A stretch of DNA of 38,692 bases, taken from Deltaproteobacteria bacterium. Lineage in GTDB: Bacteria > Desulfobacterota > GWC2-55-46 > DRQE01. A program made the position numbers and the translations under genes. Each line of letters opens with the position of its first letter. Position 1 is the stretch's first letter. The stretch lies in the NCBI GenBank assembly GCA_015492245.1, contig WGFM01000017.1:1-38692 (forward strand), written 5' to 3'. Under the pieces are notes generated by a model that worked only from the letters and a program-made list of their open reading frames with translations, did no database searches and was not told the DNA's origin. This document shows positions 14,782 to 30,977 of this stretch, piece after piece.

Positions 14782-16542
14782 TTAGAAGAGAAGAAAAAAC
14801 AGGTTAAGAATCACAAAAAGACCTATAAGGATAGACAATGCATAGTCTGGAAGCATTCCTGTCTGGAATCTTCTCAAGGCCTGGCCAAGCCCCACAAAGA
14901 AGTTTGCCACACCGTTCACTATACCATCTATCACCCCTGCATCGAATCTCCATGACCTTACAGCCACAAGCCAGCCACCGTTAAGAAAGACCCTCTGATA
15001 CAGCCCACTTACGAAGTCATCCGTAGTGGTGAACACCTTCCTTGCAATCCACAGGAATGCCCTTCCACCGAATCTGTAGAATATGTCCGTATCTATGTTT
15101 ATACCAGGAATTCTTACAAGTCTTCCTTTAAGCAGAACGAACCCCAGTAGTGCAAACCCCAGTAGAGAGAGTGTGGAAACTATATGATCAACCGTGTAGG
15201 GATGGAAGTCCATACCATGGGGCAGAAGCCCGTAGAGTGGTTGTGGAAACAGCCCGAGCAACACACAGAGGCCTGCTGCTATGACCATGGCCATAGTCAT
15301 GTTTGCAGGTGGATCATGTGCCTTGCGAGAGGCAGGCTTCTCGGTGCCAAGAAATACAAGATATGGTATCTTGAGCGCTGTATAGAGGAATGTGCCTGCC
15401 GCAGCAAGCATCAAGAGTAGATAGGGATAGGCAAGGTGCTTCTGGGCGACCGCCTCAAATATTATGGACTTTGTAACAAACCCGCTGAAAAGTGGCACCG
15501 CCGATATGGAAAGGGCACCAATCATGTAGAGTATGAATGTAATGGGCATCCGTGTCCGAAGGCCCCCGAGTTCTGTCATCCTTGCTGTTCCAGTTACAAA
15601 AAGCACGCTTCCTGCTGCCATGAACAGAAGGCCCTTGTAGAGTATATGAGAGAAGGCATGTGCCGTAACACCATTTACAGCGAGCTCTCCACCCACACCT
15701 ATGCCCGCAACCATGTAGCCCACCTGGCTTATGATGGAGTATGCCATAACCCTCCTTATATCGTTTTCCATCATGGCGTACAGGACACCGTATACAGCCA
15801 TGATGATACCAAGCCAGATGAGCACATCGGTGCCTTCAAAACCCCTTATGAGGGCATACACGGCACTCTTGGTCGTAAAGACAGACATGAATACAGCCCC
15901 ACCCAGGGTTGCCCTGGGGTAGGAGTCAGGCAGCCATGCATTGAACGGAAGGGCCGCGGCATTCACAAGAAACCCTGTAAGCACCAGCATGCCGCCAAGG
16001 CTGTCTATACCTATCCGGGCAAACTCTATGCTATGGGTCTCCATGAAAAGGAGCTTAAAGCCTGCCACAAGACACAACCCGCCGAAGACATGCACCAGTA
16101 TGTAACGGTATGCAGCATTATAGGATTCTTCCTCCTTCCTTAAAAGTATGAGAAACACAGAGGAGAATGCCATGAACTCCCAGAACACAAAGAGGGTTAC
16201 AAAGTCTCCTGCAAAGACCACCCCTATGGCACTACCTGCATACACAAGGGCTGCCGTGTGGTGCCAGCCCCTTTCTTCGTTGAGAGAGTATATGGTGGCT
16301 ATGATGGCAGCAACAGAGAACACATAGCCGAAGACAAGGCTCAATTTATCGACCCTTGTGAAGGCCACCTCTTCATGGAGTATATGGAGCACACCGTACA
16401 CACCCTCTGTAAGGCCTGTCATCGTAAAGAGTGCGCCTGTGGTGAGAAACACCAGATAGAACTGCCTCACACTGCCTCTTAAGAATGGAACGACGAATGC
16501 CCCTGCTATAAGCACCATGCCTGGATGCAACCACTGTGGCAT
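14782..16542 (-). CDS. NuoL-like proton-translocating antiporter subunit of complex I (Mrp-D-type core)
   Basis: A 586-residue polytopic membrane protein of the proton-translocating antiporter family, and the last gene of the complex I operon. The core has the TM5 Glu (FVFWEF), a TM8-region Lys (VFTTKSAVYAL) and a TM12-region Lys (FSGFVTKSII). At the TM7 position, where NuoM and NuoN carry Lys, it reads FLVNAAALPFNAWLPDSYP, with Asn instead. Beyond the core, about 89 residues of amphipathic sequence precede a final membrane helix (LRRFQTG ... YALSILIGLF). This matches the layout of the NuoL lateral helix, so it probably fills the distal NuoL position. No other NuoL is present. AAAGGAGG precedes the ATG. 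I withhold the nuoL symbol because the core resembles MrpD-type proteins. Confidence 0.85.
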   Translation of the reverse strand: MPQWLHPGMVLIAGAFVVPFLRGSVRQFYLVFLTTGALFTMTGLTEGVYGVLHILHEEVAFTRVDKLSLVFGYVFSVAAIIATIYSLNEERGWHHTAALVYAGSAIGVVFAGDFVTLFVFWEFMAFSSVFLILLRKEEESYNAAYRYILVHVFGGLCLVAGFKLLFMETHSIEFARIGIDSLGGMLVLTGFLVNAAALPFNAWLPDSYPRATLGGAVFMSVFTTKSAVYALIRGFEGTDVLIWLGIIMAVYGVLYAMMENDIRRVMAYSIISQVGYMVAGIGVGGELAVNGVTAHAFSHILYKGLLFMAAGSVLFVTGTARMTELGGLRTRMPITFILYMIGALSISAVPLFSGFVTKSIIFEAVAQKHLAYPYLLLMLAAAGTFLYTALKIPYLVFLGTEKPASRKAHDPPANMTMAMVIAAGLCVLLGLFPQPLYGLLPHGMDFHPYTVDHIVSTLSLLGFALLGFVLLKGRLVRIPGINIDTDIFYRFGGRAFLWIARKVFTTTDDFVSGLYQRVFLNGGWLVAVRSWRFDAGVIDGIVNGVANFFVGLGQALRRFQTGMLPDYALSILIGLFVILNLFFLLF

Positions 16543-16566
16543 GCCAGTGTATCCTCCTTTAGCTAA

Positions 16567-16779
16567 TTATTCGTAAAAGTCTTCATCCTGCCTGAGTCCT
16601 GTACCTGCCAGTAGTTCTGCCACTATTATTATGATAACCGCTGCACTGAACCCATAGAATGCGTTGAATCCGGGTATCCTGTCCCAGAAGAAATACCTGT
16701 GCTCAGGTGGCACCACCACATCTGCCACAAGACACAATGCAAGCACACCGTATAGTATCCACCTCAATGTGCCTTCCAT
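16567..16779 (-). CDS. Small two-helix membrane protein of the complex I antiporter module
   Basis: A 70-residue protein with two predicted membrane helices (YGVLALCLVADVVV and FSAAVIIIIVAELLAG) joined by a conserved-looking loop HRYFFWDRIPGFNAFYGF. It ends in an acidic tail. Its start overlaps the end of the upstream MrpD-like gene by 16 bases, and the NuoL-like gene follows about 25 bases later. Similar small proteins occur beside such antiporter genes in anaerobic bacteria. I infer that it is an accessory membrane subunit. No biochemical role is known to me. Confidence 0.75.
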   Translation of the reverse strand: MEGTLRWILYGVLALCLVADVVVPPEHRYFFWDRIPGFNAFYGFSAAVIIIIVAELLAGTGLRQDEDFYE

Positions 16780-18257
16780 ATGTCCGCCCCTTCGTGAATG
16801 ACCATCTCTGCTATCTCAAGGAAGTAATCCGGCCATATACCTATGATCACCGATATTACCGCTGTTATCGTAAGGGGCACCACCACGAATGGTGGGGCCT
16901 CTCTGACCTGTTCTGTATGGCTACCTGGCTCTGGCTCCTTGAAAAAGGCCCTGAACACTATGGGCAGGAAATAGGCTGCATTCAGAAGGGTGCTTGCAAG
17001 AAGCACAACCATCAGTGCTATAGAGCCTGCCTGCAGAGAGCCTATAACAAGGAACCACTTGCTGGTAAACCCTGCAACCGCAGGCACACCTATCATACTG
17101 AACGCCCCTATGGTGAAGGCAGCCATGGTGAAGGGCATCTTTCTGCCAATACCGTTCAGTCTGCTTATCTTCTTTATGTGGGAGGCAACATATATGGAAC
17201 CCGCACAGAAAAACAGTGTTATCTTTGAGAACGCATGGTTCGCTATGTGCATTATGCCGCCCAGTATGCCATCGGGCGTGAGAAGTGCCACACCGAGAAT
17301 CACATAGGAAAGCTGACTTACCGTCGAGTAGGCAAGCCGTGCCTTGAGATCATCCTTTGTAAGGGCTATGATGGATGCCGCAAGGATGGTGAAGGAGACA
17401 AAGAACGCCGTGGGTATCCCCAGGTTGAACAGACCCATCGCATCAAGCCCGAAGGTATAGAGTATAACCTTAACCACGGAAAATACGCCAACCTTGACGA
17501 CTGCCACTGCATGGAGCAGACCACTTACAGGCGTGGGCGCCACCATTGCCGAGGGCAACCAGTTGTGGAAGGGCATTATACCTGCCTTTGCAAAACCTAT
17601 AAGGAAGAACACATAGGTAAGGGTTACAAGCACAGGCTGCATACCAGCGGTGAAGATACCGCCCTCTTTGAAGTCCAGGGTACCTGTTATCATGTAGGTC
17701 ATAACTATGGCTGCAAGGAGTGCCGTCTTCGACAGACCCACAAGGTAGACTATATACTTCTTTCCACCCTCCCATGCATCCTTGTCCTCGTTGTGGGCAA
17801 CAAGGGGGTAGGTCATTATGCTCAGTATCTCGTAGAATATATAGAGGGTGAAAAGGTTCTTGGCAAAGGCAACACCGATGGCACTCGAAAGGGCTATGGC
17901 GAAGCAGGCAAAATAACGGGTCTGGGAGTGTTCGTTGAGGCTACGCATGTAGCCTATGGAATAGGCAGTGGTTATAATCCACAGAAACGATGCGGTGGTT
18001 GCAAAGAACAGCCCCAGGGCGTCGACTCTGAAACCAAAGTCTATCCCCGGCAGTATTGTAAAGAGGGTGAACTCTATTACCTTGCCATCCATTATCACAG
18101 GGGTCATGGAGAGCACTATCAAAAACTTCACTATGGCAGCACCGAAGGACCAGAACTCCCGCAGGTCAGGGTTCCTCGAAGATGCCAGTATGAGGACTAC
18201 CGCCACGGCAGAGACGAGCACCGCAAGAAAAGGTTTTATAGAGGTAACTACTTCCAT
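16764..18257 (-). CDS. MrpD/NuoM-like additional proton-translocating antiporter subunit
   Basis: A 497-residue membrane protein with about 14 helices of the proton-conducting antiporter family. It keeps the full residue set: Glu in LYIFYEILS, Lys in GFAKAGIMPFHNWLP and Lys in VAVVKVGVFSVVK. It is distinct from the NuoM and NuoN in the same operon and looks most like Mrp/Mbh subunit D. It is therefore a fourth antiporter-type subunit, beyond the usual L, M and N set. I chose ATG 18257, with AGGAGG five bases upstream, over the adjacent TTG. It lies directly after nuoN and overlaps the 70-residue gene. Confidence 0.88.
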   Translation of the reverse strand: MEVVTSIKPFLAVLVSAVAVVLILASSRNPDLREFWSFGAAIVKFLIVLSMTPVIMDGKVIEFTLFTILPGIDFGFRVDALGLFFATTASFLWIITTAYSIGYMRSLNEHSQTRYFACFAIALSSAIGVAFAKNLFTLYIFYEILSIMTYPLVAHNEDKDAWEGGKKYIVYLVGLSKTALLAAIVMTYMITGTLDFKEGGIFTAGMQPVLVTLTYVFFLIGFAKAGIMPFHNWLPSAMVAPTPVSGLLHAVAVVKVGVFSVVKVILYTFGLDAMGLFNLGIPTAFFVSFTILAASIIALTKDDLKARLAYSTVSQLSYVILGVALLTPDGILGGIMHIANHAFSKITLFFCAGSIYVASHIKKISRLNGIGRKMPFTMAAFTIGAFSMIGVPAVAGFTSKWFLVIGSLQAGSIALMVVLLASTLLNAAYFLPIVFRAFFKEPEPGSHTEQVREAPPFVVVPLTITAVISVIIGIWPDYFLEIAEMVIHEGADIWKAH

Positions 18258-18266
18258 CAACGCCTC

Positions 18267-19724
18267 CTAAACGAGAGCTGACACGCGCTGTATAAGGTCT
18301 ATAAGGTAGCCTGGATACACACCGAGCACTATGGCACCTATTATACCCACAGCTATGACGAGCCCCACACCAAAGGACTCTGCTGTCAGGTGTGTCCTTA
18401 CAGGCTCCTTCATGTACATAAGGAGCACCACCCTTATGTAGAAGTATGCTGCCACCGCACTTGCCACCACGGCAATGAGGGCGAGCTCGACCATACCCTT
18501 GTCGACAAGCGCCATGAATATGTAGAACTTGCCCACAAACCCTGCCGTTGGGGGTATGCCTGCAAGGGAGAACATGAAGACAAGCATGGCAAGCGAAAGG
18601 GCACGATGGTTCTTTGCAAGCCCGCGGTAGTCCTCTATGAGCTCTCCACTCTGCGAAGCCCTTCTCATGAACACCACAACGGCAAATGCCCCCATGTTCA
18701 TAAAGAGATATACAAACATGTAGTATATGACAGATGCCACGCCATCGTTGGTTGCGGGCAAAAGACCCAGAAGCGCATAGCCTGCATGGCCTATGCTTGA
18801 GTAGGCGAGCATCCTTTTTATATTGGTCTGCACTATGGCAACTATGTTTCCATAGAACATGGTGGCCACCGCCACAACCGCCACGAGCACCTGCCAGTGT
18901 TCGTATACTGGCAGGAGCCCCTCTGTGAATACCCTCAAGAATATGGCAAATGCGGCGGCCTTGGGCCCCACCGACATGAATGCCGTTACAGGTGTGGGCG
19001 CACCCTCGTATACATCTGGTGTCCATGCATGGAAGGGCACTGCTGCCACCTTGAAACCAAAACCGCATATAAGCCCCACGATGGCAAGCCCCACCACAGG
19101 CGTCAGCCCACCTGCCTCACCGAATGCCCTTGCTATGGCAGTAAGCTCTGTGGAGCCTGTTACACCATATATGATGGATATGCCGTAAAGCAGTATGCCG
19201 GAGGAAAAGCCTCCAAGGATGACATACTTCATGGCCCCTTCGACAGACCTCTTGTCTCTATCAAGAAACCCTGTCAGCACATATACAGGCAGACTCATCA
19301 GCTCGAGCCCTATGTATATGGTAAGAAGATCCCTGCCAGAGGCCATCACCATCATTCCGCAAAGGGAAAACAGCATCAGCGTATAATACTCTCCACCCTT
19401 TATGCCCTCTTCCCTTGTATAGTAGAACGAAATGACTATGGAGAGTATGGTTGCGAGGTAGAATATCAGCTTGAACATGGTGGAGTAACCATCGAGTATG
19501 AACATGCCAGAGAAGGCAACCCCACCCATGTAGTCTGTGGTCATAAGATAAAGGGATATGGCCGCTGCCACAGAGGCGGTAAGTATGGCGAATACCCCTA
19601 TTATGGTTCTCTCGCCCTTCCTGCACAGGAACTCCACCATGAGAAGCACACAGGCTGCAACGGCAACCACTATCTCGGGCAGAATCATCAGTATGTCTTT
19701 AATACCTGGCATCATGTCTGTCAA
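18267..19724 (-). CDS. nuoN: NADH-quinone oxidoreductase subunit N
   Basis: A 485-residue membrane-arm subunit with about 14 helices. Conserved charged positions are present: Glu in YIGLELMSLPVY, Lys in GFGFKVAAVPFHAWTPDVY, and Lys in SVGPKAAAFAI. PFHAWTPDVYEGAPTP is the NuoN-specific version of the family motif. The start is either TTG 19724, four bases after GGAGG, or an ATG at 19715 or 19712. It follows nuoM by about 20 bases. Unlike the usual order, it does not end the operon. Confidence 0.95.
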   Translation of the reverse strand: MTDMMPGIKDILMILPEIVVAVAACVLLMVEFLCRKGERTIIGVFAILTASVAAAISLYLMTTDYMGGVAFSGMFILDGYSTMFKLIFYLATILSIVISFYYTREEGIKGGEYYTLMLFSLCGMMVMASGRDLLTIYIGLELMSLPVYVLTGFLDRDKRSVEGAMKYVILGGFSSGILLYGISIIYGVTGSTELTAIARAFGEAGGLTPVVGLAIVGLICGFGFKVAAVPFHAWTPDVYEGAPTPVTAFMSVGPKAAAFAIFLRVFTEGLLPVYEHWQVLVAVVAVATMFYGNIVAIVQTNIKRMLAYSSIGHAGYALLGLLPATNDGVASVIYYMFVYLFMNMGAFAVVVFMRRASQSGELIEDYRGLAKNHRALSLAMLVFMFSLAGIPPTAGFVGKFYIFMALVDKGMVELALIAVVASAVAAYFYIRVVLLMYMKEPVRTHLTAESFGVGLVIAVGIIGAIVLGVYPGYLIDLIQRVSALV

Positions 19725-19745
19725 AAGACCTCCGGAGAATTCCCT

Positions 19746-21263
19746 TTAATGGGCAGCCTCCACAGCCGCCTCCGTAAGTAGCTCTCCTCCCTTGACCTGG
19801 GAGATGAGGTGTGCCACAGAGTCGTCCACTATGTTGAGGAAATCCACTGGATGGAATCCCACCCACAGGACAAACACCAGGAACGCTACCATGGCAACCA
19901 CCTCTCTCAAGTTCACATCCTTTATCTCGTGGCCGCCCTCTGCATGGTGTTTGCCAAAGGCCACCCTCTGGTACATCCACAGCATGTAGGCGGCCCCCAC
20001 AATGATGCCTATAATAAGGAATACGAGATATAGCTTGTATTCCTCATACGCACCGAGCAGTATGAGAAACTCTCCTATAAACCCGTTTGTCCCCGGAAAA
20101 CCCAGTGAGGCAAGGGAGAATATGAAGAGAAATACCGCATACCAGGGCACAAGTTTTGCTGCCCAGCCGTAGTGGCCAAGAAGCCTTGTACGGGTTCTCT
20201 CGTATATCAATCCCACACACAGGAAGAGGGCACTGGTTGTAATACCATGGTTGAACATCTGTAGAATCCCACCCTCTATGCCGTTCTTGTTGAAGAGGAA
20301 CAGCCCTAAGGTTACAAACCCCATGTGGCTCACACTCGAGTAGGCTATGAGTTTTTTCATATCCTCCTGTGCCAGTGCCAGGAAACCACCGTATATTATG
20401 GCTATGATAGAGAGCACTATCACAGGCTTTGCAAAAAACAGCGAGGCATCTGGCAACATGGGAAAGGAGAACCTCAAGAACCCGTATGTCCCCATCTTGA
20501 GGAGCACCCCTGCCAGTATGATACTGCCTGCCGTGGGTGCCTCCACATGGGCATCGGGCAGCCATGTGTGGAAGGGAAACATGGGCACCTTTATGGCAAA
20601 TGCCACGAAGAAGAGTATGAACAGGAAGGCCTGGAGCGTAAACTCGTACTTCTGCTCCATAAGATATGGTATGTCGAAACTACCCCCTGCCTTGAAGTAG
20701 AGCACTATCATGCCCACAAGCATCAGGATGCTTCCTGCAAGGGTATAGAGGAAGAACTTCACAGCCGAGTATATCCTGTTGGCACCTCCCCACACACCTA
20801 TTATAAGGTACATGGGTATGAGCATGATCTCCCAGAAGACATAGAAGAGGAAGAAATCGAGCGCACAGAAGACCCCTATCATTGCGGTCTGCATCACAAG
20901 GAGTGCTATCATGAACTCCTTAACCCTCTTCTCTATGGCTGTCCACGAGGCAAGCACACATATCCAGCCCACAAGCCCTGTAAGGAATACAAAGAGCACA
21001 CTTATTCCGTCCACACCCAGGTAGTAGTCTATATTGAAGCGTTCTATCCAGCCGTAGCGCTCGACAAACTGCATCCTGTGGGTGGTGGAATCGAACTTGA
21101 ACACAAGGCAGGTTGTGAGCATAAAGTCTGCAACCATGAAGGCAAGGGTCCACCACCTTATAAGCCGCTCGTTCTTCATGAAAAGCAGTGCCACCGCACC
21201 CAGAAGCGGCAGGAATATGATGATGCTCAAGAGATGATGGTTGTAGAGTTCTGTCCAGCTCAT
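19746..21263 (-). CDS. nuoM: NADH-quinone oxidoreductase subunit M
   Basis: A 505-residue antiporter-like membrane subunit. Motifs include DGISVLFVFLTGL, the TM5 Glu in FYVFWEIMLIPMY, the TM7 Lys in AFAIKVPMFPFHTWLPDAH and the TM8-region Lys in GVLLKMGTYGFLRF. The HTWLPDAHVEAPT sequence is characteristic of NuoM. It directly follows nuoK, with 2 bases between the genes, where nuoL would normally lie. The NuoL-like gene is instead at the operon's far end. Confidence 0.96.
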   Translation of the reverse strand: MSWTELYNHHLLSIIIFLPLLGAVALLFMKNERLIRWWTLAFMVADFMLTTCLVFKFDSTTHRMQFVERYGWIERFNIDYYLGVDGISVLFVFLTGLVGWICVLASWTAIEKRVKEFMIALLVMQTAMIGVFCALDFFLFYVFWEIMLIPMYLIIGVWGGANRIYSAVKFFLYTLAGSILMLVGMIVLYFKAGGSFDIPYLMEQKYEFTLQAFLFILFFVAFAIKVPMFPFHTWLPDAHVEAPTAGSIILAGVLLKMGTYGFLRFSFPMLPDASLFFAKPVIVLSIIAIIYGGFLALAQEDMKKLIAYSSVSHMGFVTLGLFLFNKNGIEGGILQMFNHGITTSALFLCVGLIYERTRTRLLGHYGWAAKLVPWYAVFLFIFSLASLGFPGTNGFIGEFLILLGAYEEYKLYLVFLIIGIIVGAAYMLWMYQRVAFGKHHAEGGHEIKDVNLREVVAMVAFLVFVLWVGFHPVDFLNIVDDSVAHLISQVKGGELLTEAAVEAAH

Positions 21264-21265
21264 GG

Positions 21266-21571
21266 TTATCCCTTCATGGTATCTATCTCGTCTGTGTTGT
21301 GCACACCCCGGCTCTTTACAAGCGCAATCAGTATGCCGAGGGCCACTGCAACCTCACAGGCCGCAACTGTTATTGTGAATATTGCAAATATCTGTCCCCT
21401 CAAGTCCTCCATGTACTGCGAGAAGGCGACAAGGTTTATGTTCACAGAGTTGAGCATGAGCTCTATACTCATGAGCACCACTATTATGTTCCTTCTGAAC
21501 AACACCCCTGCCACCCCTATAAGAAACAGCACAGAACCCACTATTATATACCAGCTCAACGGCACCATCAT
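21266..21571 (-). CDS. nuoK: NADH-quinone oxidoreductase subunit K
   Basis: A 101-residue, three-helix membrane subunit of normal length. The conserved buried Glu of helix 2 is in [19 protein letters not shown], and a second is in [15 protein letters not shown]. These carboxylates form part of the proton path between NuoH/J and the antiporter subunits. Its start overlaps the nuoJ stop by four bases, which suggests translational coupling. Confidence 0.96.
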
Positions 21572-22068
21572 CCCCTACTCCTTTTAACCATTACTATGGC
21601 ACCCACCATCGCCACAAGAAGCAATAGCGATATTACCTCGAAGGGGAATAGATACTCTGTAAAGAGCACCCTTCCAAAGGTCTTTACATCAACGGCCTTT
21701 GTGGCACCCACCTTCATGAGTGCATCCATACCACCGCCGTATATGACTGCAACAAACTCTATGGCAATACCTGCCACCACTGCATAGGGCACCCAGCCCC
21801 TTGCAGAAAACAGCCGCTCGTACCTTATCTGCTTCATGTCAAGCAGCATTATGGCAAAAAGAAACAGGACCATCACAGCACCCACATATATGAATACCTG
21901 CACTACCGCAAGAAAAGGAGACCTTAGGAGCATGAAAAGGCCTGCCACCTGAAACAGACACACCACGAGGGAGACCGCACAGTAGACGGGGTTACGCATG
22001 AGCACCACCCCAAGGGCTGAGCCTATGGCCGTTGCGGAAAAGAATATGAACAGAAGCTCTTCAAACAT
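21568..22068 (-). CDS. nuoJ: NADH-quinone oxidoreductase subunit J
   Basis: A 166-residue membrane subunit with five predicted helices. The family stretch [20 protein letters not shown] corresponds to NuoJ helix 3, with its pi-bulge Tyr/Gly region. The C-terminal helix ends in MVKRSRG. It lies between nuoI and nuoK, with a short gap before it and a four-base overlap after it. Confidence 0.96.
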
Positions 22069-22071
22069 CCT

Positions 22072-22659
22072 TTATACCTTCTTCCACCAGTCTTTGTCCC
22101 TCGGTTTCCATATATCTGGTTTTACCCTTATACCCTCTTTGGTTCTCTCGAATCTTGCACTCACCACCATGCCACCCTCGAACCCTTCGGGCACCTCCTG
22201 TGGTCTGAGTAGCCTTTCCCTGTCCCTTACGGCATCTGTCCTGTTGAAACAGGCAAGCTCGTAGTCTCTGCCCAGTCTTACCGCTGTGGTGGGGCATGCG
22301 TCCTCACAATAGCCACAGAACAGACACCTTACAAGGTCCACCTTCCATATCTTTGGAACCCTGTCCGCAATGCCTCTGCCTGTGTCGTCCTCCTGTGGGA
22401 CCACGGTTATACACCCTGTTGGACAGGCCTTCACACAGAGCTCGCATGCCACGCAGAGTTCCCTGCCCTCTTCATCCCTGTTCAGTGTATGGGCACCGCG
22501 GAATCTCTGGTAGGGTATCCACTTTTCCTCGTCCGGATACCTTACGGTTACAGACCTTGACACATTGTACTTCAGCGTTACAGAAAGCCCCTTTAGGATG
22601 TCCACAAAGAGGACCTTCTTGAGTATGTCCAGCACACCTTCTCTCTTCTTCTCTTTCAT
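22072..22659 (-). CDS. nuoI: NADH-quinone oxidoreductase subunit I (two 4Fe-4S clusters)
   Basis: A 195-residue ferredoxin-like subunit carrying clusters N6a and N6b. The two ligand sets are CVACELCVKACPTGC and CLFCGYCEDACP. The frame continues upstream into nuoH, but ATG 22659 overlaps the nuoH stop as ATGA and begins the expected N-terminus (MKEKKREGVLDIL). I therefore use that start. It transfers electrons from NuoG toward NuoB on the peripheral arm. Confidence 0.96.
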   Translation of the reverse strand: MKEKKREGVLDILKKVLFVDILKGLSVTLKYNVSRSVTVRYPDEEKWIPYQRFRGAHTLNRDEEGRELCVACELCVKACPTGCITVVPQEDDTGRGIADRVPKIWKVDLVRCLFCGYCEDACPTTAVRLGRDYELACFNRTDAVRDRERLLRPQEVPEGFEGGMVVSARFERTKEGIRVKPDIWKPRDKDWWKKV

Positions 22660-23675
22660 ATAATCATCCACCCCGTAACGAGTATGTTCAAAAGTGAAAG
22701 TGGTATCAGTATCTTCCAGCCTATGGTCATGAGCTGGTCGTAACGATACCTTGGCAGAGTAAACCTTATCCACATAAACAGGTATACGAAGAAGCCCACC
22801 TTGAGGAGGAACCACACTATAGGGGGCAACCAGCCAAGCCCTGTTGGGTCATCCCATCCGCCGAAGAAGAGTATTACCGCAAGCACACTCATGGAGACCA
22901 TGGCGATGTATTCTGCAAGCATGAAGTAGGCGAACCTTATACCGCTGTATTCCACATGGAAGCCTGCGGCAAGTGTTCCCTCGTCCTCTGGCAGGTCGAA
23001 GGGTATACGGTTTATCTCTGCAAGCCCTGCAATGAAGAATATGACAAACCACACAGGGCCAACGGGCAGATAAAACACATTCCAGTTGGTAACTCCGCCT
23101 GTCTGTGCCCTCACTATATCTATAAGGTTGAGTGAGCTTGCAAGCATCACCACCCCTATGCAGGCGAATGTGAGGGCCACCTCGTAGCTTATCATCTGTG
23201 CCGAGGACCTGAGCCCTCCAAGAAGGGCGTACTTGCTGTTGGATGCCCATCCACCGAGTATTATTCCATACACCGCCACACCTGATATGGCCAGTATGTA
23301 GAGAAGCCCCACATTCATGTCTGCAACATAGAGGGTAACCTCCTTGTTGATGTAGGGTATGGTCCAGCTCTCTCCAAAGGGTATCGCAACGAATACCATG
23401 AAGATTGGCACCATCGACACTATGGGGGCAAACCTGAAGAGGAGGCGGTCTGCCTGTTCGGGGATGACATCCTCCTTGAAGAGCATCTTTACCATATCGG
23501 CAAAGGGCTGTAGCACCCCATGGGGGCCAACCCTGAAGGGGCCAAGCCTTACCTGTATGTGGCCGGCTATCTTGCGCTCAAGCCAGGTAAGTGGTAGCGG
23601 AAGGCTGAAAAGAATGAACCCCAGCACCACCACCTTTACGAATATTATCGCTACTTCTATGAAAGCCTCTGTCAT
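22656..23675 (-). CDS. nuoH: NADH-quinone oxidoreductase subunit H
   Basis: A 339-residue membrane subunit with eight predicted helices that forms the quinone-binding pocket and the junction with the peripheral arm. Recognisable stretches are TWLERKIAGHIQVRLGPFRV, GPHGVLQPFADMVKMLFKED, and the conserved loop AEINRIPFDLPEDEGTLAAG followed by HVEYSGIRF. Length is normal. It begins 3 bases after the cyclic-nucleotide-binding gene and overlaps nuoI by four bases. Confidence 0.97.
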   Translation of the reverse strand: MTEAFIEVAIIFVKVVVLGFILFSLPLPLTWLERKIAGHIQVRLGPFRVGPHGVLQPFADMVKMLFKEDVIPEQADRLLFRFAPIVSMVPIFMVFVAIPFGESWTIPYINKEVTLYVADMNVGLLYILAISGVAVYGIILGGWASNSKYALLGGLRSSAQMISYEVALTFACIGVVMLASSLNLIDIVRAQTGGVTNWNVFYLPVGPVWFVIFFIAGLAEINRIPFDLPEDEGTLAAGFHVEYSGIRFAYFMLAEYIAMVSMSVLAVILFFGGWDDPTGLGWLPPIVWFLLKVGFFVYLFMWIRFTLPRYRYDQLMTIGWKILIPLSLLNILVTGWMII

Positions 23676-23678
23676 GGC

Positions 23679-24149
23679 CTATCTTTTTCTGCCCCACATG
23701 TAGTTGAGCATCTCTATGTAGCGTATGTTCATACCCCTTACTATGTTGTGTATGGCGAACACAATGTTCTTAAGGAGCTTGTACACCACCCAGGGATGTT
23801 TGTCCACCAGGGTCTCGAAATCCTTCCTTTCGAGCACATAGACCTCTATATCGGAAAGCGCAACTATGGTTGCAGACCTGGGCCTGCCATCGAGAAAGCT
23901 CATCTCTCCGAATATCTCGCCCTCCTTCATGAGGGTGAGGGTGAAGAGTTCTCCATCGGGGGCCATCTTGCATGCCTTAACCTCTCCCTTACGGAGTATG
24001 TAGAGGCTCTGTCCGTCAGAGGTCTCTGTAAATATGGTCTCTCCCTGTTTGAACTCCCTTTTTGTAAGTATCCTGCTTACAACCTCGAGCTCTGACTCTG
24101 TGAGGTCTGCAAAGAATGGTATGTTCCGTAGTGTATTAGGGTCTACCAT
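23679..24149 (-). CDS. Cyclic-nucleotide-binding domain protein inserted between nuoG and nuoH
   Basis: A 156-residue single-domain protein. It is a cNMP-binding beta-barrel (about residues 8-125) with a short helical C-terminus and no DNA-binding helix-turn-helix. The phosphate-binding cassette looks intact: FGEMSFLDGRPRSATI has the Gly-Glu and Arg-Ser/Ala-Thr positions used to hold cyclic nucleotide. No membrane helix or signal peptide is visible. Only 2-3 bases separate it from nuoG and nuoH, so it must be co-expressed with complex I. It could be a ligand-controlled regulatory or assembly partner of the complex. That role is inference from position only. It is not a standard Nuo subunit. 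Confidence 0.88.
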   Translation of the reverse strand: MVDPNTLRNIPFFADLTESELEVVSRILTKREFKQGETIFTETSDGQSLYILRKGEVKACKMAPDGELFTLTLMKEGEIFGEMSFLDGRPRSATIVALSDIEVYVLERKDFETLVDKHPWVVYKLLKNIVFAIHNIVRGMNIRYIEMLNYMWGRKR

Positions 24150-24151
24150 CT

Positions 24152-26647
24152 CTATTCCCCCTGTTTTTTGTAAGGCCTTATCCTTACTGTTGAAACCACC
24201 CTGTCTTTATCGAAGAATCTGTTGGCATCCTTTCCGTCGAAGTTCTCGGGCATGAACGCAACACCATCGGGTGTGCCCTCCCTTATCCTTACTGGGAGCC
24301 TTTCTCTGTAGCCCCTGGCCTCAACCTCCACCATATCTCCCTCGCCAACTCCCAGCCTCTGGGCCGCAGTGCTGCCTATCTCTACCACACACCCACCGAG
24401 AAGCTCTCTCAATATACCCGAGTGTTGCGATAGTCTTGCCCCGTGGAACAGGTGGTTACCGGTAAGGAGCCAGAACTCACCTTCGGCTCTTTCAGGCACA
24501 GCGTAGCTGAAGCTGGGCTTGAGCTCTGCCACCTGGTCTGCCGAGGCACCCTTGAATGCCTCCATACCCCTTACCTCTCCATAACCAGGGACCTGCTTTT
24601 GAATCTCCTTCCACACATCCCCTGGCCTTACCACAGGAAAGTCCTTTTCAATAAGATTCCCGGCCCTTCCTATCGTCTCAAGGGGTGTCCGCACTTCCCC
24701 CTCTGGCCTGCGGACTGCCTCCATCCTCTGCACCCTGCCTTCCTGGTTGGTCATGGTGCCATGCTTTTCTCCGTACATCGCCATTGGCAGCACAAGGTTG
24801 GCCATAGGGGCTGAGCCTGTCATGAATGAGTCCTGCACAACAAGAAAGCCCACCCTGGATAGTGCCCTTTCCACACCGGCTCTATCAGGATACAGCCCCA
24901 GAACATCCTCTCCCAGAAGATAGAGGAAGCCAAGCCCACCGGAGTCTGCAAGCTCCACAATACCGTGTACATCATGTCCTCTTCTTTGTGCAGGCCTGTA
25001 GCCTGGCTCAAGATATGGATGCACCCCCATATCCCAGGCCCCTCGCTGGTTCGCCCTGTCGAGCAAGGGCAGAACCCTTACATCCCTTACAGTATTCTCA
25101 AGCAGCCTCACCAGCAGAGCCAGTTCCTCTGCGCCATCGTCGTATCGCAGCATGTCTGTGCCAGCAAGCACTCCCACAGAGCCTGCCGTAAGAAGCCTTG
25201 CGGCAATCCAGCGGATGTCATCTGCATTTACCCCGCATACCCCAGAGAGCTCTTCCACCGTAAGCCCCTTTACAGCCTCCATACCCTCCATGCTCACTTC
25301 CTTCTTCTCAACCAGTGCCTTCAGGAGGGCTGCGATGAACGCCCCTGTTGTGGCAGGCACAGTTCTTACAGAAAGCTGTGCCGAGCTGTCGAGCTTCATC
25401 CCCCTGGGCGAGGCTATAACGAGGGTGTTCCTTCTTGCCCCGTTTATATATCTCAGGATATAGTCTGTAACAGGGTTCTCCTCTGAAAGCTGCCCACCGA
25501 GGACCACCACCACATCACTTTCTGCACACTGGTACACAGAGGTGCCACCGCCCCTTATGCCCGCTGCCTCCATGAACTTAAGACTACTTTCTGCAGACCA
25601 GCGTGAGGTGGAGTCCATATTGGCGGTGCCCACAACCTTGCGCATGAACTTCTGGAAGAGATACAACTCCTCATTGGTGAGTGTGGCCGAGGCCACACCT
25701 GCTGCCCTCTCGGGGCCAGCCCTCAATATGGCCTCCTTCATAAGCTCAAGCGCCCTGTCCCACGAGACGGGCCTGAAGCTACCATCACGCTCCTTAACAA
25801 GGGGTGTCTTTATCCTTTCCTCTGAGTTCATCACATCGTAGCCGAACCTTCCCCTTGCACACAGAAGCTTACGGTTGAACCCATCCTCCGGGTTGGCGAT
25901 GGCACGCACCACCGTATCCCCCCTTCTTTCGAGGGTAAGCCTGCATCCTGTGGCGCAGTAGCCACACACACTCCTTGCACTCACAAGGTCCCAGGGCCTT
26001 GCCCTGTACCTGTAAGGCAGCCTCATGAAGGAGCCCACCGGACACACCTCGATACACATGCCACAGTGGTCGCAATCAAGCCTTGTCCTTAGAAAGCTCG
26101 TCTCTTCCTGGTGCACACCTCTGCCAACAGCCCCGAGCACCCCGCGGCCCACCACCTCTTTACAGACCCTGACACACCTCATGCACTGCACACACCTGTT
26201 GGCATTCTTGACTATGACAGGGCTCAAGATGTAGTCTTTGTCGTGGTGGCGCACCTTGTCTTCTGCGAACCTGCCCTTGCGGGGGCCATGTTTGTACACA
26301 AGGTCCTGAAGCTCACACTCCCCGCCCTTATCACAGACAGGACAATCCAGTGGATGGTTCGAGAGCAGGAACTCGAGCATGGCACTGCGGGTCATCTTTA
26401 CGGTGTCTGTCTCGGTGAATACATTCATATCAGGCATGACCGGCGTTATGCAGGAAGGCTGGAGCTTGCGCTGGCCCTCTATCTCCACAAGGCACATCCT
26501 GCAGGAGCCAAGCCCTGAGAGGTTTGCCTGGTAGCAGAATGTGGGTATATCGAACCCTGCCTCCTTTGCGGCATCCAGTATGAGGGTGCCTTCCCTTACG
26601 GTAACCTCTCTACCGTTTATCTTGAGTGTTACAAGCCCTGTAGTCAT
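24152..26647 (-). CDS. nuoG: NADH-quinone oxidoreductase subunit G
   Basis: An 831-residue iron-sulfur subunit of the NADH-dehydrogenase arm. The N-terminal 2Fe-2S ferredoxin domain has CYQANLSGLGSCRMC and a later Cys. Next come the His-Cys 4Fe-4S region (HPLDCPVCDKGGECELQ), two ferredoxin-type motifs (CVQCMRCVRVC and CDHCGMCIEVCP), and the extra N7-type ligands (CGYCATGC with a distal LLCARGR). The remainder is a molybdopterin-oxidoreductase-like domain (SWDRALELMKEA ...) without evident cofactor chemistry. I chose ATG 26647, 2 bases after the nuoF stop, over an ATG 15 bases upstream. Confidence 0.95.
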   Translation of the reverse strand: MTTGLVTLKINGREVTVREGTLILDAAKEAGFDIPTFCYQANLSGLGSCRMCLVEIEGQRKLQPSCITPVMPDMNVFTETDTVKMTRSAMLEFLLSNHPLDCPVCDKGGECELQDLVYKHGPRKGRFAEDKVRHHDKDYILSPVIVKNANRCVQCMRCVRVCKEVVGRGVLGAVGRGVHQEETSFLRTRLDCDHCGMCIEVCPVGSFMRLPYRYRARPWDLVSARSVCGYCATGCRLTLERRGDTVVRAIANPEDGFNRKLLCARGRFGYDVMNSEERIKTPLVKERDGSFRPVSWDRALELMKEAILRAGPERAAGVASATLTNEELYLFQKFMRKVVGTANMDSTSRWSAESSLKFMEAAGIRGGGTSVYQCAESDVVVVLGGQLSEENPVTDYILRYINGARRNTLVIASPRGMKLDSSAQLSVRTVPATTGAFIAALLKALVEKKEVSMEGMEAVKGLTVEELSGVCGVNADDIRWIAARLLTAGSVGVLAGTDMLRYDDGAEELALLVRLLENTVRDVRVLPLLDRANQRGAWDMGVHPYLEPGYRPAQRRGHDVHGIVELADSGGLGFLYLLGEDVLGLYPDRAGVERALSRVGFLVVQDSFMTGSAPMANLVLPMAMYGEKHGTMTNQEGRVQRMEAVRRPEGEVRTPLETIGRAGNLIEKDFPVVRPGDVWKEIQKQVPGYGEVRGMEAFKGASADQVAELKPSFSYAVPERAEGEFWLLTGNHLFHGARLSQHSGILRELLGGCVVEIGSTAAQRLGVGEGDMVEVEARGYRERLPVRIREGTPDGVAFMPENFDGKDANRFFDKDRVVSTVRIRPYKKQGE

Positions 26648-26649
26648 GA

Positions 26650-27903
26650 TCAGACCATACACCTCTTGTGTTCTATGTGATACTGGAACTCCTCTCTGAA
26701 GTTCTTGAGCACCCCTCTCAGTGCCATCACCGCACCATCTCCCAGGGGGCAGAAGGTTCTGCCAAATATGTTGTCACAGAGGCTCTCAAGGAGTTCCACA
26801 TCCCCTGGCACCCCCCTGCCGTGCTCTATCCTCTCCACTATCTTCTTGAGCCATGTGGTGCCTTCCCTGCAGGGTGTGCACTTGCCACATGACTCGTGGC
26901 TGAAAAATCTCATTATTATGTAGGCCGTCTTTACCATACAGGTGGTCTCATCCATGACTATCACACCACCAGAGCCCAGCATGCTGCCTATCTTTGCAAG
27001 GGAGTCGAAGTCCATGGGGGTATGGAGCTCACTTTCTGTAAGAAGTGGTGCGCTCACCCCACCTGGTATTACGGCCTTAAGCCTTCTACCCTCCCTTATG
27101 CCACCTGCATGTTCGTACACAATCTCTCTTAAAGGGGTGCCCATGGGGAGTTCATAAAGCCCTGGCCTTTCAACATGCCCGCTCACACCGAATATCTTTG
27201 GGCCCGGGCTCTTCTCTGGCCCTATGGAGGCGAACCACTCTGCCCCCCTGTTGACTATGGCAGGCAGACACGCAAGGGTCTCCACATTGTTTATAACCGT
27301 GGGCTTGCCATATAGTCCACTCAACGCAGGAAAGGGTGGTTTCTTGCGGGGCTGTCCCCTGTAGCCCTCTATGGACTCAAGGAGAGCTGTCTCCTCACCA
27401 CATATGTAGGCTCCAAAACCACGATGCACATAGATGTCGAGGGAGAATCCTGTTCCCAGTATGTTCTCCCCGAGGAAACCCTTCTCATAGGCCTCAAGGA
27501 TTGCCTCCTGGAGCCTTCTTGCAGCAAAGAGGAACTCTCCCCTTATGTATATGTATGCCTTGTGCGCACCTATGGCATAGCTTGCTATGGCCATACCTTC
27601 CAACAGAAGGTGCGGATCATACTCCATTATGCCGCGGTCCTTGAATGTGCCCGGCTCACCCTCGTCTGCGTTGCAGCAGAGGTATTTCTCAGGGGCATCC
27701 TTGGGTATGAAGCTCCACTTGAGCCCTGTGGGAAAACCCGCACCCCCTCTACCCCTCAGGCCCGAGTCCTTTACCATCTGTATTATGTCCTCTGGCTCCA
27801 TGCCCAGGGCCTTCCTCAATGCCTCGTAACCACCGCCTGAAAGGTAGCTGTCTACTGTATGGGCACCTTCTCTGCCAAGGTTTTTTAAGAGTACCTTCTC
27901 CAT
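26650..27903 (-). CDS. nuoF: NADH-quinone oxidoreductase subunit F (NADH/FMN site)
   Basis: A 417-residue flavoprotein that oxidises NADH. The nucleotide-binding loop is GLRGRGGAGFPTGLKW (about residues 49-64), the FMN region is CNADEGEPGTFKDR, and the N3 4Fe-4S ligands are ESCGKCTPCREG with a later Cys. The frame is open far upstream into nuoE, but that extension is nuoE in another frame. The true ATG at 27903 overlaps the nuoE stop by one base (TGATG) and begins MEKVLLKNLG. Confidence 0.97.
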   Translation of the reverse strand: MEKVLLKNLGREGAHTVDSYLSGGGYEALRKALGMEPEDIIQMVKDSGLRGRGGAGFPTGLKWSFIPKDAPEKYLCCNADEGEPGTFKDRGIMEYDPHLLLEGMAIASYAIGAHKAYIYIRGEFLFAARRLQEAILEAYEKGFLGENILGTGFSLDIYVHRGFGAYICGEETALLESIEGYRGQPRKKPPFPALSGLYGKPTVINNVETLACLPAIVNRGAEWFASIGPEKSPGPKIFGVSGHVERPGLYELPMGTPLREIVYEHAGGIREGRRLKAVIPGGVSAPLLTESELHTPMDFDSLAKIGSMLGSGGVIVMDETTCMVKTAYIIMRFFSHESCGKCTPCREGTTWLKKIVERIEHGRGVPGDVELLESLCDNIFGRTFCPLGDGAVMALRGVLKNFREEFQYHIEHKRCMV

Positions 27904-28370
27904 CACTTGAGTCTTTCCAGTATCTCTTCTACCTTCTTGTCTGTAAGGTTCTCGTAATAGTCGTCGTTTACCTGTATGACAGGGGCTGTGCCACAGCTTC
28001 CGAGACACTGCACCACCGAAAGGGTGAACCGCTTGTCCCCTGTGGTCTGGCCGGTCTTTATACCAAGAAGCCTCTCTATGTGTTTGAGTATGTGCTCGCC
28101 CCCCATAAGTGAGCAGGAAAGGTTCTCGCAGACCTGTATGTGGTATCTGCCCACAGGCCTTTCCACATTGTACATGGTATAGAACTTGCCAACCGCCTCG
28201 ACCTCCACGGGCTCCATGTCGAGAAGTCGGGCTATCTCCTCCATGTCCTCTTTCGTCAGATAACCCTTCTGTCTTTGCACAAGCTGCATGGAGGCCATGC
28301 AGGCAGACCTTCTGGTGCGGTATTTTGGCAGTATCTTCCCTTCTATCTCTCTTCTCGTCTTCTCGTCCAT
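27903..28370 (-). CDS. nuoE: NADH-quinone oxidoreductase subunit E
   Basis: A 155-residue thioredoxin-like 2Fe-2S subunit (cluster N1a). The four ligands are visible as VCENLSC (Cys-x4-Cys) and CLGSCGTAP (Cys-x3-Cys). The N-terminal helical region includes KGYLTKEDMEEIARLLDM. Length is normal. It follows nuoD by two bases and is coupled to nuoF through a one-base overlap. Confidence 0.96.
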   Translation of the reverse strand: MDEKTRREIEGKILPKYRTRRSACMASMQLVQRQKGYLTKEDMEEIARLLDMEPVEVEAVGKFYTMYNVERPVGRYHIQVCENLSCSLMGGEHILKHIERLLGIKTGQTTGDKRFTLSVVQCLGSCGTAPVIQVNDDYYENLTDKKVEEILERLK

Positions 28371-28372
28371 CG

Positions 28373-29557
28373 TTACTTATCACACTCCCCGAAGACGGGG
28401 TCCAGGCTCGACACTATGGCGACCACATCGGCAAGGTATTCACCCCTTGAAAGTGTATCCATCGCCTGCAGGTTACAGAAGCTCGGCGCCCTTATCTTCA
28501 GCCTATAGGGGCGCTCCGAGCCATCGCTCTTTATATAGAAGCCCAGCTCTCCCTTTGGTGCCTCTATGGCACAGTAGACCTCTCCTTCAGGCACCTTGAA
28601 CCCATGGGATACATACTTGAAGTGGTGTATGAGGGCCTCCATGTTCTGGTATATCTCGTGCTTTGGTGGTGGCACGATCTCTGGCATGTCCACATTGAAT
28701 GGTCCCTCGGGCATGTCCCTTACACACTGCTCTATTATACGAATACTCTGGCGCATCTCCTCGATACGCACCATGTAGCGGTCGAAACAATCGCCATCTG
28801 TTCCCAGGGGCACATCGAAGTTCAGCCTGTCATATACCAGATAGGGCTCGTCCTTTCTCATGTCCCAGTTTACGCCACTGGCCCTAAGGTTTGGCCCGCC
28901 AAGACCTATCTCTATGGCATCTTCTCCAGAGATTGCTCCGACACCACGGTTTCTCTTTATCCAGATCCTGTTGCCTGTAAGGAGTTTTTCGTATTCCTCT
29001 ATCTTCTCTGGAAGTATTCTGCAAAGTGCCAAGCACTTCTTCTTGAACTCCTCTGTGGCATCGTATCTTACCCCGCCTATCCTCAGATAACTGTAGGTCA
29101 TCCTTGCACCACAGAGCATCTCGAAGAGATCAAGCACCATCTCTCTGTCTCTTATGGCATAAAGGAGCATGCTCATTGCCCCGAGGTCCACCCCCCATGC
29201 CCCTATACAGACCAGATGCCCCGAAAGCCTCGAGAGTTCTGCCGCTATCACCCTTATGTACTGCGCCCTTTCAGGCACCTCTATGTCAAGAAGCTTTTCC
29301 ACCGCCAGCACATAGGCAAGGTTGTTGCTCATGCCACACATGTAGTCGAGCCTGTCTGTATAGGGCACAAATTGATGATAGAAAAGGTTCTCTGCTATCT
29401 TTTCCGTGCCGCGATGGAGGTAGCCTATATCCGGCTCTGCCCTCAAGACGGTCTCGCCCTGTATATCCACCAGAAGGTGCAACACCCCGTGGGCAGAGGG
29501 ATGCTGCGGCCCAAAGCTCAGGGTGAGTTCCCTGGTGGTTACAGGCATGCCTTTCAT
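28373..29557 (-). CDS. nuoD: NADH-quinone oxidoreductase subunit D
   Basis: A 394-residue 49-kDa-type subunit that forms the quinone site together with NuoB. It is a hydrogenase-large-subunit relative without the nickel cysteines. Diagnostic stretches are LSFGPQHPSAHGVL near the N-terminus, DIGYLHRGTEKI, YTDRLDYMCGMSNN and the C-terminal EAPKGELGFYIKSDG. I chose ATG 29557, 1 base after the nuoC stop and preceded by AAAAGGA. A longer start at 29578 would overlap nuoC. NuoC and NuoD are separate here, not fused. Confidence 0.96.
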   Translation of the reverse strand: MKGMPVTTRELTLSFGPQHPSAHGVLHLLVDIQGETVLRAEPDIGYLHRGTEKIAENLFYHQFVPYTDRLDYMCGMSNNLAYVLAVEKLLDIEVPERAQYIRVIAAELSRLSGHLVCIGAWGVDLGAMSMLLYAIRDREMVLDLFEMLCGARMTYSYLRIGGVRYDATEEFKKKCLALCRILPEKIEEYEKLLTGNRIWIKRNRGVGAISGEDAIEIGLGGPNLRASGVNWDMRKDEPYLVYDRLNFDVPLGTDGDCFDRYMVRIEEMRQSIRIIEQCVRDMPEGPFNVDMPEIVPPPKHEIYQNMEALIHHFKYVSHGFKVPEGEVYCAIEAPKGELGFYIKSDGSERPYRLKIRAPSFCNLQAMDTLSRGEYLADVVAIVSSLDPVFGECDK

Positions 29558-29558
29558 A

Positions 29559-30059
29559 TCATTCCTTTTCTTCTCCATAGGGGTTGTAATCGTCCTTGTA
29601 GCCTCTTAATGGGTAATCCTTCCTCAAGGGGAAGCCCTCCCAGTCGTCTGGAAGGTATATGCGTTTAAGGTTGGGGTGTCCTGTAAAAACAATGCCAAAC
29701 ATGTCGTATACCTCTCTTTCGTGCCAGTTTGCAGACTTCCACACCCCTGTAACAGTTGGCACGCTCTCACCATCTTCTACCCTTATCTTGAGGCGCAACC
29801 TCGTCCGTTTTGTAATGGACAGAAGGTGATATATGACCTCGAACCTTGGGACCTCATCGGGGTAATCCACCCCCAGGATGTCTGAGAGAAACTTCATGTC
29901 GAACGCGGGGTCTTCCTTTACAAACCTGCACACCTCCACTATGGAGTCTTTCCTGACGGTGCAGGTGAGCTCATCGCGGAACCCAACGGCATCGAGCAGC
30001 GCTGTGCCGAATCGCTCTCTTAATCTCTGTATGAAAAGCTCCTTACTACTTTTCACCAT
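29559..30059 (-). CDS. nuoC: NADH-quinone oxidoreductase subunit C
   Basis: A 166-residue 30-kDa-type peripheral subunit. The signature [19 protein letters not shown] is followed by [20 protein letters not shown], which is the standard NuoC C-terminal half. It starts with ATG GTG at 30059, overlapping the end of nuoB by 14 bases. It ends just before nuoD. Confidence 0.96.
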
Positions 30060-30600
30060 GGCTTACCGGCGCAAGCCCCCTCTGGGTAAATATCTCTGGC
30101 TGTTCCTTCCTTATCTTTTCCTGTAGCTGCAGAAACCCGAATACAAGGGCATCTGGCCTTGGTGGACATCCTGGTATGAACACATCCACCGGTATGACCC
30201 TCTCTGTGCCCTGCACCACTGCGTATGTGTTGTATGGTCCTCCTGCAGAGGCACATCCACCCTGTGCTATAACCCAGCGTGGTTCTGCCATCTGGTCATA
30301 GAGCCTCTTCACCGTGGGAGCAATCTTTTTGGTCATGGTGCCTGCCACCACCATAACATCCGATTGCCTCGGTGATGGTCTGAATATTATGCCCATACGG
30401 TCGAGGTCGTAGCGTGAGCAGGCGGTGCATATCATCTCTATGGCACAGCATGCAAGCCCGAATGTCATGGGCCACAGAGACGAGGTTCTGCCCCAGTCCA
30501 TGACCTTCTTGGAGACAGGGTTTGTCCTCAGAAAGTGGAGTATATTGTCAAGGGTAGTAAACTGTGCAACTCCACCGTATGGGTTTTCCTTTATAAGCAT
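30046..30600 (-). CDS. nuoB: NADH-quinone oxidoreductase subunit B (cluster N2)
   Basis: A 184-residue PSST-type subunit that holds the terminal 4Fe-4S cluster N2 next to the quinone site. Ligands are visible as the tandem Cys pair in [11 protein letters not shown], the Cys in [14 protein letters not shown], and the Cys in [12 protein letters not shown]. Length is normal. It begins 11 bases after the nuoA stop and overlaps nuoC by 14 bases. Confidence 0.97.
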
Positions 30601-30611
30601 ATCTGCTCACC

Positions 30612-30977
30612 TCACTTTATCCAGTCAAGAGCACCTTTTGCCCACGCATAGGCAAGCCCCACAGTGAGTACCGCTATAAATATGAACATCTCTATGAATA
30701 CAAGGGTGGAGATATCAGGCTCTTTAAGTATTACTGCCCAGGGGAAGAGATATAGTATTTCAACATCAAACACTATAAAGAGGATTGCGATTATAAAGAA
30801 GTGCACCCTGAAGTGCCCGGTGTCTGCCTCGCCGATGGGCTCCATGCCACACTCCCATGGCGAGAGTTTCTCTGAGTAGGGGTTGCGGGGCCTGAAAAGA
30901 GAACCCACAAAGAGAACCATGCAGGCCATGAATGCCGCAAAACCGGCCATGAAAAGAATGGACAGATAGTCAGCCAC
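30612..30977 (-). CDS. nuoA: NADH-quinone oxidoreductase subunit A
   Basis: A 121-residue three-helix membrane subunit and the first gene of the operon. The conserved region is the loop YSEKLSPWECGMEPIGEA and the second helix FIIAILFIVFDVEILYLFPW with its acidic DVE. It starts with GTG (30975-30977). An AGGAGG lies 13 bases upstream, rather far, so initiation may be weak. The promoter is about 60 bases upstream. Confidence 0.95.
   Translation of the reverse strand: MADYLSILFMAGFAAFMACMVLFVGSLFRPRNPYSEKLSPWECGMEPIGEADTGHFRVHFFIIAILFIVFDVEILYLFPWAVILKEPDISTLVFIEMFIFIAVLTVGLAYAWAKGALDWIK

Follow-up and report, generated by a model that had tools for sequence, protein, structure and literature searches.

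A green-type complex I operon with four antiporter-type subunits and without nuoL in a member of the Desulfobacterota

In the green complex I of certain rhizobia, the antiporter-type subunit NuoL is replaced by two MrpD-like subunits (PMC9040806, PMC7415380). A further variant, the 2M complex I, occurs in Nitrospira and in other organisms (Chadwick et al. 2018, cited in PMC9040806), and a five-pump complex is stated in PMC9040806 to be unique to the Manganitrophaceae. That the length of the lateral helix matches the number of modules has already been reported for MBH, MBS, and complex I (PMC7684303). Here, a complex I operon is analyzed that lies on the minus strand of contig WGFM01000017.1 (assembly GCA_015492245.1) of a Deltaproteobacteria bacterium of the phylum Desulfobacterota. 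The stretch of 38,692 nucleotides that was analyzed is termed the window, and coordinates given without a handle refer to it; handles beginning with G and L denote genomes and loci. The operon is the only one of its kind in the window and is complete from nuoA to nuoN except for nuoL.

The gene order is nuoA-B-C-D-E-F-G, a gene for a cyclic nucleotide monophosphate (cNMP)-binding protein, nuoH-I-J-K-M-N, the gene for a subunit designated D1, a gene for a protein of 70 amino acids, and that for a subunit designated D2. Since nuoM (19746..21263, 505 amino acids; TIGR01972, 633 bits) follows nuoK directly, there is no nuoL at the position where it normally lies, as an earlier, sequence-only reading of the window had noticed. 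Downstream of nuoN (18267..19724, 485 amino acids; TIGR01770, 488 bits) are encoded D1 (16764..18260, 498 amino acids; NCBIfam NF006236/PRK08375), an extra antiporter-type subunit that corresponds to "MrpD1" of green complex I, then the small two-helix membrane protein (16567..16779), whose start overlaps the end of D1 and which carries the C-terminal motif E-D-[YF]-Y, and finally D2 (14782..16542, 586 amino acids; NCBIfam NF009310/PRK12668), the "MrpD2" of green complex I and the terminal antiporter-type subunit that would stand in for NuoL. A search of the organism's own genome (1.88 Mb in 35 contigs, 100% complete) with PF00361, which as a control gave matches in 13 of 14 known genomes, returned exactly four antiporter-type proteins, namely NuoM, NuoN, D1, and D2, all in the nuo operon, and no NuoL (TIGR01974) was matched in this genome at the cut-off used. 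The sequence-only reading was thus correct in counting four such subunits in one operon, in placing a 70-residue membrane protein after D1, and in expecting no other nuoL in the genome. NuoL, which belongs to the canonical 14-subunit complex I, was not detected in this genome. Very probably, the product of the operon is a single NADH-linked complex I of green type, with NuoN, NuoM, D1, and D2 as the four modules of its membrane arm.

D2 is assigned to the family NF009310, named antiporter subunit D, with 671.8 bits (cut-off 564), and it matches the NuoL family weakly, with 168 bits at a cut-off of 407.5. In its AlphaFold2 model (mean predicted local distance difference test score 86), a many-helix body and transmembrane helix (TM) 15 are followed by one helix of 74 residues (486-559) and by TM16 (564-585); the stretch of about 89 residues that had been spotted before the last helix is found at residues 475-563. 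The closest structural matches to the model are NuoL, MrpA, and MrpD, and the best PDB sequence match is 6u8y_X of MBS. Superposition onto E. coli NuoL (3rko_B) extends over residues 3-586 (Z 43.8, 540 residues aligned, root mean square deviation (rmsd) 11.4), and D2 is thus predicted to fold as NuoL over its whole length. In tight superpositions (7z84, 7zci, 7p7e, 7p7c, and 7p61; rmsd 2.8-2.9), residues 505-506 of D2 come to lie at residues 561-562 of E. coli NuoL, and a second AlphaFold2 model places residues 503-507 there (7z84, 7p7m, 7zci, 7p7e, and 7p7c). If this register holds, the D2 helix would extend some 25-30 residues past the end of the E. coli helix, which is about one module.

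The family relationships of the subunits were assessed in a maximum-likelihood tree of 135 antiporter-type proteins, obtained with a quick method, with support values from the Shimodaira-Hasegawa-like approximate likelihood ratio test only, and containing two antisense rows as noise (L059_NuoL_935 and L136_D1_8942). NuoM, D1, and D2 form one clade each with a support of 100, one antisense row aside. Neither D1 nor D2 clusters with NuoL plus MrpA (support 98) or with MrpD, and D1 is not grouped with NuoM. "MrpD-like" and "relocated NuoL", the names chosen in the sequence-only reading, are therefore both loose; D2 falls outside NuoL as a separate deep clade, and D1 likewise is one of its own. 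The NuoL-like fold and C-terminal helix of D2 would still suit an origin as a relocated, diverged NuoL with D1 as a recent duplicate. This is scarcely credible in view of the separate, fully supported clades, of a D2 stem of 2.3 changes per column, and of two genomes (G016 and G024) in which NuoL and D2 reside in two separate, complete complex I operons (L052 + L070 and L056 + L066, respectively).

D1 reaches 762.8 bits against NF006236 (cut-off 663), likewise a family named antiporter subunit D, and stays far below the NuoL cut-off. It had been described as an extra MrpD-like pump with all key residues; these are indeed complete (TM5 Glu E144, TM7 Lys K225, TM8 H250/K256, and TM12 Lys K401), while its identification as MrpD is not supported by the tree. 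D1 also bears signs of the NuoL/MrpA type, i.e., His250 and Lys256 on TM8 as well as His338 and Lys346. For the small protein encoded between D1 and D2, no match was obtained in Pfam, NCBIfam, or PDB. It aligns with an 84-amino acid protein of rhizobia; at the C terminus, most members have EDYYD, and the window protein has EDFYE. A homologue is also present in Mrp clusters that carry D1 and D2. The small protein probably serves D1 and D2 as a structural partner.

D2 matches rhizobial megaplasmid proteins with about 49-50% identity over 97%, and D1 shares a clade with its rhizobial counterpart; on pSymA the genes are arranged as nuoJ-nuoK-D1-84 amino acids-D2-nuoM-nuoN-nuoA. From a scan of the collection for D2 relatives the best 80 named loci were taken, with taxon names as in the records. 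They span Desulfobacterota, Nitrospirota, Nitrospinota, Planctomycetota, Verrucomicrobiota, Acidobacteriota, Pseudomonadota, Marinimicrobia, and archaea, and comprise 69 complex I operons, four Mrp clusters, and seven loci that are cut or unclear. None of these 69 operons has NuoL in the same locus, 68 possess the small gene, and the dominant order is K-D1-small-D2-M-N; the order K-M-N-D1-small-D2 is limited to the window's own order of bacteria among the loci examined. Among 59 related genomes, NuoL is absent from 20 of the 28 with a D2 above the cut-off versus five of the 31 without such a D2, a pattern that fits replacement of NuoL by the module. Eight genomes contain both D2 and NuoL: G016 and G024 are the two mentioned above; in G014, G051, and G053 the D2 belongs to an Mrp-type cluster (L050, L041, and L045, respectively); G020 and G027 carry a green operon; and the eighth is G021.

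The Mrp-type clusters that hold the module combine D1-small-D2 with MrpE, F, G, MbhD/E, B, C, and D. In L053 (7002-14806), as well as in L042, L045, and L050, a split MbhD/MbhE-type protein together with MrpD-D1-small-D2 takes the place of MrpA. Because the module is shared with such clusters, it is possible that it is Mrp-derived, as the sequence-only reading proposed, although transfer could have proceeded in either direction. The same clusters, including those of "Ca. N. alkalitolerans" (PMC7784846), and the NCBIfam names of D1 and D2 also speak for a different arrangement, in which D1, the small protein, and D2 would form a separate Mrp-type cation/proton antiporter beside a truncated complex I with NuoM and NuoN only. 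The own genome, however, contains neither MrpG nor MnhB (MrpB), both of which were detected by the same searches in several control genomes (MrpE and MrpF were not searched), and none of its four PF00361 proteins falls into the MrpA or MrpD clade. Furthermore, complex-I-linked D2s, that of the window included, possess a NuoL-type lateral helix and TM16, both of which are missing from Mrp-linked D2s, which argues that the complex-I-linked D2 occupies the place of NuoL in the arm, and in most phyla the module is inserted exactly between nuoK and nuoM. A separate antiporter, which the sequence-only reading had itself seen as a danger to its interpretation, is thus improbable.

The length of the lateral-helix segment, taken as the number of residues between the TM15 end and the conserved glycine that precedes TM16, is stepped by complex type. 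It amounts to 77-80 residues in canonical NuoL of three-pump complexes (n = 4 sequences), to 90-94 residues in 83 of 90 complex-I-linked (green) D2s, to 111 residues in NuoL of the two-NuoM type (n = 12 distinct; the operon was read for three, each with two NuoMs), and to 117-121 residues in D2 of five-module operons (G034, G028, G036, and G003). With 91 residues, the segment of the window D2 is longer than that of standard NuoL. The four- and five-module steps extend the published helix-length rule (PMC7684303).

Five-module operons, i.e., with two NuoMs, NuoN, D1, and D2, were encountered in L059 (G003), L167 (G008), L040 (G034), L044 (G028), and L043 + L169 (G036), those of G008 and G036 each being pieced together from two contigs; in G008, two tandem NuoMs, one of them frameshifted, are located on one contig and a D2 with the tail length of that of G003 on another, which also agrees with the length steps. 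Five-module complexes are thus predicted outside the Manganitrophaceae, in the window's own family (G003 and G008) and order (G028, G034, and G036). In G003, both NuoMs group as sisters (support 97), so that its five-module operon arose on its own; outside the Manganitrophaceae, five-module operons have arisen at least twice. The D2s of G034, G028, and G036 (L040:2343-4172, L044:8075-9910, and L043:1191-3017, respectively) have a graft-like tail: their last 112 residues are 51-64% identical, over 102 residues, to the tails of related two-NuoM NuoLs, while their bodies match those NuoLs at only about 30-33% identity, compared with 53-65% for most other D2s. Most simply, D2 in these genomes would have acquired the lateral helix of the NuoL that was lost, by splicing onto its end.

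From these data, we infer an arm in the order N-M-D1-D2, assembled in one complex. D2 would be situated at its far end in the place of NuoL, and the lateral helix of D2 would run back over the other modules and tie the arm together. D1 would be a complete pump-type module. The extra module would probably allow up to one more ion to be translocated per two electrons or, alternatively, push electrons more strongly in reverse from quinol to NAD+; the higher ion yield that the sequence-only reading considered may be regarded as plausible.

Several points weigh against this assignment. The green D2 segment between TM15 and TM16 is only about 14 residues longer than that of canonical NuoL, and a D2 helix spanning one more module relies on superposed models of isolated monomers. 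In the AlphaFold2 model of a long-helix D2 (L074), two helices (483-542 and 557-587) are separated by a stretch of low confidence (544-563), so that one continuous long helix is not evident. A long D2 helix is also combined with a single NuoM in L062 (122 residues) and L141/L147 (117 residues). The genomes of L141/L147 also carry a five-module operon; for L062:6591-8465 (G002), with one NuoM in the genome, either a NuoM was lost or the helix was lengthened in advance. The presence of D1-small-D2 in Mrp clusters implies that the module can serve elsewhere, and biochemistry or a structure of any green complex I was not found in the literature. Lastly, D2 has an Asn (N194) at the position of the TM7 Lys that all other pump subunits in the comparison possess.

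This Asn is found in all 24 D2s compared and is invariant in the 38 sequences of a wider alignment (A3), Mrp-linked D2s included, and it supports the view that D1 and D2 are both part of complex I but D2 acts as a non-pumping structural cap; D1, with its NuoL/MrpA-type residues, would then be the functional NuoL, and still four H+ would be translocated per two electrons. D2 retains, however, TM5 Glu E122, TM8 Lys K225, His295/His299, and TM12 Lys K358, which is beyond the needs of a mere cap, and the TM8 Lys might stand in for that of TM7. A cap has a real chance of being correct, if somewhat short of even. In the four-module arm favored here, a fourth pump is likely as far as D1 is concerned and uncertain for D2 because of the Asn. 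More tentatively, and in our estimation less probable than not, complex I arms would consist of interchangeable modules measured by the terminal lateral helix, and an end without the TM7 Lys would work by a different end-of-chain mechanism (e.g., ion exit or Na+ gating through D2). Lineages would then have shifted among three, four, and five modules by swapping module plus helix, even by grafting the old NuoL helix onto D2.

With regard to physiology, the genome encodes heme-copper oxidases, among them proteins resembling CtaD and CcoN. It also contains a gene pair resembling ATP citrate lyase (434 and 907 amino acids; L172 833-4882, contig C32), whose weak family scores suggest a divergent citrate-cleaving enzyme; RuBisCO, CdhC, and true DsrA were not matched in this genome. 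The organism may be aerobic or microaerobic and may fix carbon by the reductive tricarboxylic acid cycle. Such a metabolism would require reverse electron flow, and additional modules in the arm would help to drive it, as has been argued for related complexes (PMC9040806). Reverse electron flow would thus fit the gene content.

The remaining genes of the operon, all on the minus strand, are nuoK (21266..21571), nuoJ (21568..22068), nuoI (22072..22815; start codon uncertain, its open reading frame overlapping nuoH), nuoH (22656..23675), nuoG (24152..26662, from reading of the sequence), nuoF (26650..27906; start picked by eye, the reading frame being open further upstream), nuoE (27903..28370), nuoD (28373..29578), nuoC (29559..30059), nuoB (30046..30600), and nuoA (30612..30977). 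The cNMP-binding-domain protein (23679..24149, 156 amino acids; PF00027), encoded between nuoG and nuoH, is perhaps a regulator or a subunit. A stand-alone protein of this type is also found between nuoG and nuoH in the three-pump operon L065, the two-NuoM operons L067/L069, the green operons L052/L054, and L076.

Comparing the known systems, MBS (PMC7684303; PDB 6u8y) is likewise a redox complex with two antiporter-like subunits, of which the last has a lateral helix whose length fits the module number; it differs in the opposite position of the redox arm, in its Na+ module, and in the Lys at the TM7 kink of MbsH' (K217). The Group 3 Mrp clusters with extra NuoM/NuoL-like genes (PMC7784846; L053, L042, L045, and L050) share the homologous D1-small-D2, but are devoid of redox subunits and of the NuoL-type lateral helix in the D2 tail. 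The window operon resembles the 2M complex I in having four modules of the antiporter type and a lengthened lateral helix; there, however, a second NuoM is added, NuoL is kept with an insert in its lateral helix, and the segment is 111 residues long, whereas here NuoL is lost, the D2 segment has 91 residues, and the single NuoM is the only one detected in the genome by the PF00361 search. In Complex_I_3 of "Ca. Manganitrophaceae" (PMC9040806), MrpD1/MrpD2 also replace NuoL, but it has five modules, two of them NuoMs, and its D2 helix contains a 26-residue insert; neither feature is seen in the window. Two likely operons of this five-module type (L168 and L170) have no small gene and no room for one between D1 and D2.

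The closest agreement is with the rhizobial green complex I, which has two "MrpD-like" subunits for NuoL, a small gene between them (84 amino acids in S. meliloti), a D2 of 586 amino acids, and a lateral-helix segment of 91 residues, the latter two values being identical to those of the window. This small gene, present here and in rhizobia, is not stated in the literature found on green complex I, nor is its conservation or a terminal module lacking the TM7 Lys mentioned there. Differences are the lineage and the gene order, K-D1-small-D2-M-N in rhizobia and K-M-N-D1-small-D2 in the window; moreover, rhizobia often also have a standard complex I (PMC7415380), whereas the window operon encodes the only complex I of its genome. 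Since the order varies among relatives and is not part of the definition in PMC9040806, this difference marks a sub-type and not an exclusion. Judged by its genes, the window operon is a green complex I, i.e., of an already known kind, which is far more widespread than the rhizobia in which it was first described. Whether each antiporter-like subunit is one pump, and hence how many ions are moved per electron pair, is a central question of bioenergetics, which can be put to the test with natural complexes of three, four, and five modules whose lateral helices match in length. Relative to the literature found, the lineage and the gene order are new for green complex I; the length ruler, the tail graft, the terminal module without the TM7 Lys, and the conserved small protein would form the broader pattern and the more interesting part.

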